Source: Sinotaia quadrata (taxonomy: Eukaryota > Mollusca > Gastropoda > Architaenioglossa > Viviparidae). From it: DNA of 64,000 nt. The position numbers were made by a program, and so were the translations under genes. The stretch is from the NCBI GenBank assembly GCA_028829895.1, contig CM054179.1, forward strand, positions 77,162,544-77,226,543, given 5' to 3'. Below the pieces are notes generated by a model. That model was not told where the DNA came from. It did no database searches and saw nothing but the letters and a program-made list of their open reading frames with translations. Shown here one piece after another: positions 54,401 through 63,612 of the stretch. Each line of letters starts with the position of its first letter. The first letter of the stretch is position 1.

Positions 54401-57400
54401 CTTCTTAGGGATTAACTGTTCCCGTTTTCTGCAGGTACATAGTGGCCGTCAAAGCCAGAGACAGCGCAGGACTTGAAAGTAATGCTGTCCAATCGACACC
54501 AGTTCTTGTTGACATTACACCTCCAGAGGGCGTTGTCTGTTCTGCTTACAGTCTACAAGCAGAGGCCAGAATGACGTACTCTGACACTGCGTCATTTCTG
54601 CACACGTATTCAGCTGCTTTCGACGTTAGCCTAGACAGCGAGAGCACTGTGTTAAGAGTCACGGTGACCGGACATATCGCAAAAACAGAAGCTGAGGGGT
54701 ATGTCACAGTCTGATAAAATTGTCCGACTTCGTGACCCACTTGCCTTGTTTACTTCAAATTCGAATATTTGAAACCCTTGGCCCTTTGTTCAAAGCTTCC
54801 TTTTTCTAGGTGCTTCTAGAACAGGTCAAGATGTTATGTAACTTTAGGACCATTGTCCAGTTCTCGAACCAACCACATGCTTTGCGAACAGTCACGTGAT
54901 ACGCAATATACCTTTCTATATATGTACCCACACGCTTCCGCTCCCTCACTTCGAGCACATTTTAGCTAATTCCATCAGCTTACTCGGGTCGTGAGAGGCA
55001 GCCGGCGCCATAGAGAATCAAGGTACCCTTCGACTTCTCTCAAAGGTATCATTTTATTTAATAGTATTTGCCTATGTATTGTTTAAGTATGTATTTGTGC
55101 TATGTATTATATGATTTCCCTATACACTTGAGCATGGTTCAAAGAAATAGCTGAAAACCTATATGTTACGGAATATAAATTTATTGTAACCATTTTTCCA
55201 TTTCTGTACTTTAATTTATATTGTTTTAATTCACTAAGAGCCAGAATGCTGCGCTCGATATGAATTCTTCATGTAATTCAATTATTGCGTGTAATTTTAA
55301 TTGTAAATTGTGAAGCGCTCTGTCGGTTTGAATTACCTCTTGTATGAACATTAATTTAACGTTGTATCTATTTTATTGCTTCATACGTCATGACTGTTAA
55401 ATGGAACACATGTGAGACGATTATATTTTTTCTAAAATCTAATTGTAAGCGACGCGAGGTCGAAACTCTTTGTTCAGCGCATTTAATTGAGCCATGCCTA
55501 GGTAGGACCTGTTAGGTTGAGAATTATATCCAAACACGTTGCATCCACAGGTCGGCTCATGGTTCATGTTTCACCATGCCTCACCTGCATTAGCTTATTG
55601 GTGTAAGCGTGTCGAAATCCACTCTGAGGGCCATGCTGCAAAAATTCCAGTTCCTAGCCACTAACAAAGGGACATCATTCCTTATGCACCACGTGTGTCG
55701 TTAAAGGGGGACTGAGGGAACGAACCGGCATGATTGAGTGTTGAGACCAAGGATACAAGAATAGAGCTAAGTGCAAAATCAAGTGTACAGATCTCAAAGG
55801 AACACTTTTCTGGCAATTTAGATTGACAAAAATCAGGCATAGGCGCGTAAAGACAGAGTGAAGACTATTCGCGTTGCATTCGATTTATTGTTAATTTGTT
55901 AAACTTTATTAAATCTTATTTTCTTTGTTAATACCTCTTAGTAGTTGATTTCTATGCACAATAGACCAATTAGATTAATTCTTAGATTTGAATGGGGGCG
56001 GATGAGCAGAAAGATTGATGACGAGTGCATATTAATTTAGAGGGATTTAACTGTTTTCAAATCTAGCTAAAGGTTCGCAGTTTATTAGTCTGTAAATTTG
56101 TCGTCTGAACTACAAGACGCACTTTTAATTAGTCAGATAATAAATTGAGCAACCAGTCTGCGTAGAATATGAGAGGAAGAATTAATTATATTTAAAGTCT
56201 TTTAATTATTCTAAGCAGGGTCTTTAAATAAATACTGGAAACGTAACAAGTGTGGGTCGTCGCGGGATTGATATGTATTAAATTGTAAATTGTAACATTT
56301 TTATACATAGGGCGCATCATAACCTAGAAACGAACGAACGAACAGAATTGCCAATTGTTCTTTTGATTTTTGTATCACTGATTTTCTTTGCTTTTGTTGT
56401 GACATGTGCATGTATTCTTTTGCAGAGTAGCGTGCATGTTAGTTAATGTTGATATATTTAAGCGTAGTTAAATATGTCATGTTAGCTATTGAATGATTTA
56501 TTTAGTATTGTGTTACTGAGTACTTCATTGTGAGGAGTCGAAGGTTATACCGCCAGCTAGGAGAGTTATCGGTAGTAACAGACTTCGGACTATTATATTT
56601 AGGGTGCTAGATATAATGTGTAATGTTGTATGGTAGGAGCCGTGACATTACGGAAGTCTTGGAACAGCGGACACTGTGACAAGCAGGTGAAACGTGTAAA
56701 GAGTTAACGCGTAATTTATTTCGGAAGGTGTTCTGAGTAAATTAAATAATTTTTGTAAGGTTGTAGCCTAAAAGTTATTTTCGGGATAAGCGGAGTTATC
56801 GCCGACGGTTAAAACACACAATTCACGAGATACATTGTTATTGTAGCCAGCGCGCTAAGACAGTAAAATGGATCGCAAACAGGTTATCGAAGACCTGAAA
56901 GAAACCGGTATCATGATAGGATATCAGGGTGACGAACTGACTAGCTACATCAAAACTGAGCTAGAGAAAGCGGAAAAAGCAGAAAAGGAGAGAGTAGAAA
57001 AAGCGGACAAAGAAAGGCAAGAGATAGAAAGAGAAGAACGCGTTGCTAATCGCGAAGCTAAGAAGTTAGAGGCTGAAAGACTAGCTGAAACCGAGGCTAA
57101 ACGCATCGCAGCGGACACAGAAGCAAAACGCATCGCAGCGGATACAGAAGCCAAACGCATCGCCGCAGACGCGGAAATAAAACGGTTAGAATGGGAAGTA
57201 AAGAAACTAGAAGTTACCAATCCAAACCGTGATCGCAGAAGCAGTGGTGATTCGCGTTCTAGCGATGGAAATAATCACAGTAGAATTGAAAATATCATTC
57301 CAAAGATAAATATGGTCCCATTTGATGAGAACAAAGATCAAATAGACGCGTATTTAAAAACGTTTGAAAAGTTAGCCAGAGCAACAAACATTCCAGCGGA

Positions 57401-63612: not shown

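Follow-up and report, generated by a model that had tools for sequence, protein, structure and literature searches.

The window, by which is meant the whole 64-kb stretch of DNA that was analysed, contains on its forward strand a giant gene, one of whose coding exons is split by an LTR retrotransposon lying in the same orientation as the gene. The features on which the following account relies are listed here in window coordinates, with a slash marking splice boundaries.

21704-63611, forward strand: span of the host gene, colinear by tblastn with residues 90-3030 of the Batillaria protein P0125 (3,295 residues)
54435-54701, forward strand: 5' part of the interrupted coding exon, 267 nt, with the acceptor tctgcag/GT; it ends in the first duplication copy and is homologous to P0001-P0004 and P0125-P0136
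54697-54701, no strand: left copy of the target-site duplication, GGGTA
54699-54704, forward strand: donor-like GGG/GTATGT formed by the duplication and the LTR end, a match to the consensus only
54702-62999, forward strand (sense to the host gene): LTR retrotransposon, 8,298 bp
54702-56248, forward strand: 5' LTR, 1,547 bp, with TG...CA ends
56249-56867, forward strand: leader between the 5' LTR and the ORF
4 nt after the 5' LTR, within the leader, forward strand: candidate primer-binding site, a stretch starting with TGG
56868-61229, forward strand: single, uninterrupted gag-protease-integrase-RT-RNase H ORF, 1,453 residues from the ATG
58641-59696, forward strand: integrase by Pfam, with H2C2 zinc-binding, rve core and p58 C-terminal parts (residues 593-944 of the translation from 56865)
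60102-60584, forward strand: reverse transcriptase RVT_1 by Pfam (residues 1080-1240), with FMDD at 60429
60777-61163, forward strand: RNase H by Pfam (PF17919/PF17917)
61440-61452, forward strand: probable polypurine tract, purine-rich with one C, identified by its position abutting the 3' LTR
61453-62999, forward strand: 3' LTR, 1,547 bp, identical to the 5' LTR
63000-63004, no strand: right copy of the target-site duplication, GGGTA
63005-63612, forward strand: 3' part of the interrupted coding exon, 608 nt, with the donor TTGG/gtaggt at 63613

The element is bounded by direct LTRs with TG...CA ends and flanked by a short target-site duplication, and the original prediction that it is very young is borne out. 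The full LTR-to-LTR alignment for which that prediction called has been run and gives 0 differences over the entire 1,547 bp, which caps LTR divergence at 0.0019 per site as a one-sided 95% upper bound, and GGGTA stands at both flanks. Together, the undiverged LTRs, their ends and the 5-bp duplication rule out chance as the source of this arrangement. The 5' LTR contains a TATATA at 54917 and AATAAA signals at 56139 and 56227.

Between the LTRs, the ORF carries gag, protease, integrase, RT and RNase H, the full set of an LTR retrotransposon. Gag is recognised from a CCHC knuckle and its position only, and the protease region carries a DTG motif together with Pfam matches that lie below the curated cut-offs (PF13650, 22.8 against 24.3 bits; PF13975, 21.5 against 28.2 bits). 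PF00078, PF17919, PF17917, PF17921 and PF22938 all score above cut-off, and the copia RT family (RVT_2) is absent among the 13 Pfam families listed for the ORF. Gypsy-type RT and RNase H models with H2C2/p58-type integrase models are taken here to denote a Ty3/gypsy element, and RVT_2 a copia-type one. An env gene was not found, as the 223 bp from the end of the ORF at 61229 to the 3' LTR at 61453 contain no ORF of at least 80 residues; one 81-residue frame straddles this gap and the 3' LTR. Nor did ARAGORN find any tRNA genes in the window. The integrase lies upstream of the RT, which is the gene order of the Gmr1 clade and an unusual one that the original prediction did not mention, and the element is best described as an autonomous-looking Ty3/gypsy-type retrotransposon with an integrase-first arrangement. 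An older, decayed integrase-first gypsy copy is found on the minus strand at 3839-6071, ahead of where the alignment to the host gene begins, with integrase at 6071-5320 and RT at 5028-4464, each in two frames, and RNase H at 4453-3839.

Integrase upstream of RT is described in sections of PMC6238403, PMC8220671 and PMC3587641 as the copia order and, among gypsy elements, as that of the Gmr1 clade. The members named in those sections (Gmr1 of Atlantic cod, LGF3 of Lamellibrachia luymesi and GyRex4 of Rimicaris exoculata) likewise have gypsy-type RT, RNase H and an integrase-first order. According to the relevant part of PMC3587641, its crustacean elements are the first Gmr1-like ones described in protostomes, and in the mollusc survey PMC6238403 the clade is absent by name from Table 1, where the MolGy clades may include such elements, and is named in the background section. 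The present copy differs in residing in a snail genome, probably a caenogastropod one, and its proposed membership of the clade is a matter of gene order and domain type rather than of a tree including the cod reference.

A search with the integrase-RT piece of the element scored 7,984 proteins and returned 2,422 at E 1e-20 or better; its length limit hides copies with full-length ORFs, and the best match of 84% is accordingly uninformative on copy number. Integrase precedes RT in 120/120 relatives among the matches listed of these 2,422, a favoured set because the query itself spans integrase and RT in that order. Carriers named among the 120 listed include gastropods, bivalves, sea urchins, a brittle star, a sea star, a crinoid, a shrimp and ticks. 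Integrase-first gypsy-type elements (relatives P0005-P0124) are seen in ticks, echinoderms, bivalves and gastropods, none of which is named as a Gmr1 carrier in the available sections of the cited papers.

When the two parts of the interrupted exon are joined with one copy of GGGTA kept, an exon of 875 nt results, which is free of stops in one frame, while the other two contain 18 and 17, and the upstream exon joins it in frame. With the element in place the frame reads ...TEAEGYVTV and then meets two stops. The original prediction that the insertion lies in a coding exon, with a frame open through the empty site and closed just inside the LTR, is therefore sustained, and relatives conserve the exon without a break. 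A search with the joined-exon translation matched 4 proteins among 834 candidates. Three of these, P0002, P0003 and P0004, contain the same exon without interruption at 44-47% identity, with a likeness that stops just after 'LG', the position of the donor used here. The closest match of P0002 is P0129 from Littorina (65%) and that of P0004 is P0132, also from Littorina (60%); P0002-P0004 may come from other species or be paralogues.

The 3' limit of the exon bears on what skipping it would do, since an exon of 875 nt (ending at 63612) shifts the frame when skipped, whereas one of 879 nt (ending at 63616) would keep it. A crude exon scan had placed the end at 63616, 4 nt beyond 63612. In 10 of the 11 caenogastropod proteins whose alignment reaches the exon's last residue, the following residue is E, D, G or A (P0129 has K). 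All codons for these four begin with G, which is what an intron in phase 1 behind the G at 63612 would give; the homologues therefore favour 63612 and the end at 63616 was set aside. The intron directly after this exon contains, at 63872-63993, a perfect tandem repeat of a 37-bp unit (100% match over 3.3 copies).

That the host gene is a giant one, as originally proposed, is supported by its alignment to the 3,295-residue snail protein over 21704-63611. The colinearity is broken only by cross-matches between repeated modules, and residues 40-97 of P0125 have two competing matches, at 9335 and 18372. A search with residues 1230-2224 of a query of concatenated host exons listed 100 proteins; the query was built from the exons from 35567 onward, except those at 43292 and 45857, and lacks a number of codons at junctions. 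The best 13 of the 100 are giant caenogastropod proteins with 43-50% identity, 8 from Batillaria attramentaria, 4 from Littorina saxatilis and 1 from Nucella lapillus; the other matches listed include Haliotis at 34%, bivalves at 31-33% at best, octopus at 30% and Branchiostoma mostly at 25-34%. In 55 of the 100 listed an alignment, in many cases weak, covers the site together with the 12 residues ahead of it and the 24 beyond. The insertion site is crossed by 12 of the 13 caenogastropod proteins, P0137 ending short of it, and falls at 82.5-88.6% of the length of these 12, several of which are marked partial. The gene is one copy of a multicopy FN3-type family, the members of which have about 2,800-3,500 residues. 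By these identities the host is itself most likely a caenogastropod snail.

Pfam fn3 (PF00041) is above cut-off in one exon and PF24893 is below cut-off in P0001, and 4 of 7 proteins tested gave no Pfam match at E 1 or better. A simple hydropathy scan reveals no clear membrane-spanning stretch in any of the 12 caenogastropod relatives, with a single marginal hydrophobic 19-mer in P0136, and by eye P0129 and P0139 begin with a signal-peptide-like stretch. The lack of a clear membrane stretch, these N-termini and the FN3 domain suggest a product with several domains that is probably secreted. Within the gene span, two abutting minisatellites with shared sequence occupy 22443-23998 (a 44-bp unit repeated 18.6 times and a 29-bp unit repeated 22.1 times), with a 73-bp period as a bridge between them, and are open in three minus-strand frames. 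An intronic ORF of 156 residues at 48933-49403 looks by eye like part of a mobile-element protein and has no Pfam match above cut-off.

The original prediction had offered a recent disrupting allele as one of two possibilities, and this is the branch now favoured, as a contig with the empty site has been found in public sequence. P0001 is a predicted protein of 321 residues from a separate 1,637-bp contig with one member. It matches the reading obtained by joining the flanks at 318 of 320 residues, straight through the insertion site, and so an unoccupied copy of the site exists. The P0001 reading continues past the donor into the intron, where 32/32 residues beyond the last full exon codon are identical and the same stop is reached; since it enters the intron, its source would seem to be genomic DNA or unspliced RNA. 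It differs at two residues (V to A and A to V), which points to a haplotype other than the window's. In this stretch, paralogues within Batillaria share at best 68% identity (21 pairs, 7 proteins) and those within Littorina at best 55% (6 pairs, 4 proteins). With 99% identity and an identical reading in the intron, P0001 fits an allele far better than a paralogue, and is most likely an allele within the same species. Exact loss of the element was set aside as the origin of the empty copy, as LTR elements do not leave cleanly and recombination between their LTRs leaves a solo LTR; the chromosome behind P0001 has thus most likely never contained the element. The insertion would accordingly seem to be polymorphic rather than a difference between paralogues, and the intact element frame together with the empty copy makes it likely that a gypsy lineage with the integrase-first order has recently been active in a probable gastropod.

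P0001 could still be a very recent paralogue, with the insertion fixed and harmless at this locus while a near-identical copy does the work. The family is multicopy (Batillaria attramentaria and Littorina saxatilis supply 8 and 4 of the 100 matches listed) and a very recent duplicate without the element would look identical, but the gap between 99% and the 68% ceiling for same-species paralogues, together with the identity past the last full exon codon, leaves this unlikely. It is less likely still that the host gene was dead before the element arrived. In the alignments to P0125 and P0126 the only stops other than that in the LTR are at 24432 (HSP 24336-24605) and 33460 (HSP 33427-33627). The former comes shortly after the end (24420) of an ATCT microsatellite and recurs in the P0126 alignment, and the latter lies inside an alignment gap and recurs in the P0130 alignment; both are probably intron, and the frame of P0001 is open. 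The least credible proposal is that an assembly error fused the element to the exon. Identical LTRs are a classic place for misassembly, yet the perfect duplication at both junctions and the complete LTR ends are the marks of integration.

A different kind of alternative concerns the transcript, as the host might splice the element out in the manner of an intron, making the insertion nearly neutral. The junction does create the donor-like GGG/GTATGT, and the far side of the element has a CAG acceptor-like end, but with the element removed exactly from GT to AG the exon would be 876 nt long, one more than 875, and its frame would stop after EGVR, and skipping of the 875-nt exon shifts the frame. 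Simple scoring finds six in-frame donor-acceptor pairs, all of which use the GGG/GTATGT donor, and the highest-scoring, 54699 to 63097, gives 779 nt with no stop at the cost of 32 residues (96 nt). Judged by simple consensus, the acceptors that keep the frame are weak, and they would need to work across 8 kb that include the LTR poly(A) signals. The rescue by splicing raised in the original prediction is consequently weakened, with exact removal and exon skipping both counting against it and a moderate in-frame cryptic option left in its favour, and near-neutrality by this route is improbable. An equally slender chance attaches to the idea that the occupied allele is more than a broken one, yielding a truncated FN3 protein that is secreted and has its end in the LTR (or else a 3' product driven by the LTR), and that it is one of several insertion variants maintained in a multicopy family with members that vary from one individual to another.

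The explanation favoured with high confidence is that of a recent sense insertion, in a probable caenogastropod snail, of a Ty3/gypsy-type element that struck a coding exon in one member of a multicopy family of giant FN3-type genes, while the unoccupied allele still circulates. In outline, an integrase-first Ty3/gypsy element would have been reverse-transcribed and would then have integrated in sense orientation into the coding exon of a gene for an FN3-type extracellular protein, so recently that its LTRs are undiverged and the empty allele persists. As the LTR is in sense orientation and carries AATAAA at two positions, one would most simply expect polyadenylation of the occupied allele's transcripts in the 5' LTR, giving a shortened protein or decay. 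At best the protein would be truncated at about 83-89% of its length, and set against P0125 some 465 residues would be missing from the C-terminal end of the occupied allele's product.

The insertion is most likely recent, segregating, truncating and of a known kind. Polymorphic LTR-retrotransposon insertions that truncate host genes are a familiar general class, with which the present case shares identical LTRs, a target-site duplication and an empty copy elsewhere, and the mechanism itself is already well known. The case differs in that the host gene belongs to a multicopy giant FN3-type family. Among the matches listed from the open-licence PMC literature, for queries of a general kind, none reports an insertion at this locus. 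Its value lies in a clean coding-exon insertion having been caught while an empty copy exists and the element frame is intact, and any reference assembled from the filled haplotype would carry a broken gene in its annotation. Gene presence-absence variation has reportedly been described in the Mediterranean mussel (PMC7653742) and would offer a natural parallel, as it too involves within-species gene-loss variants in a mollusc, although here the variant is one insertion and not an absent gene region.
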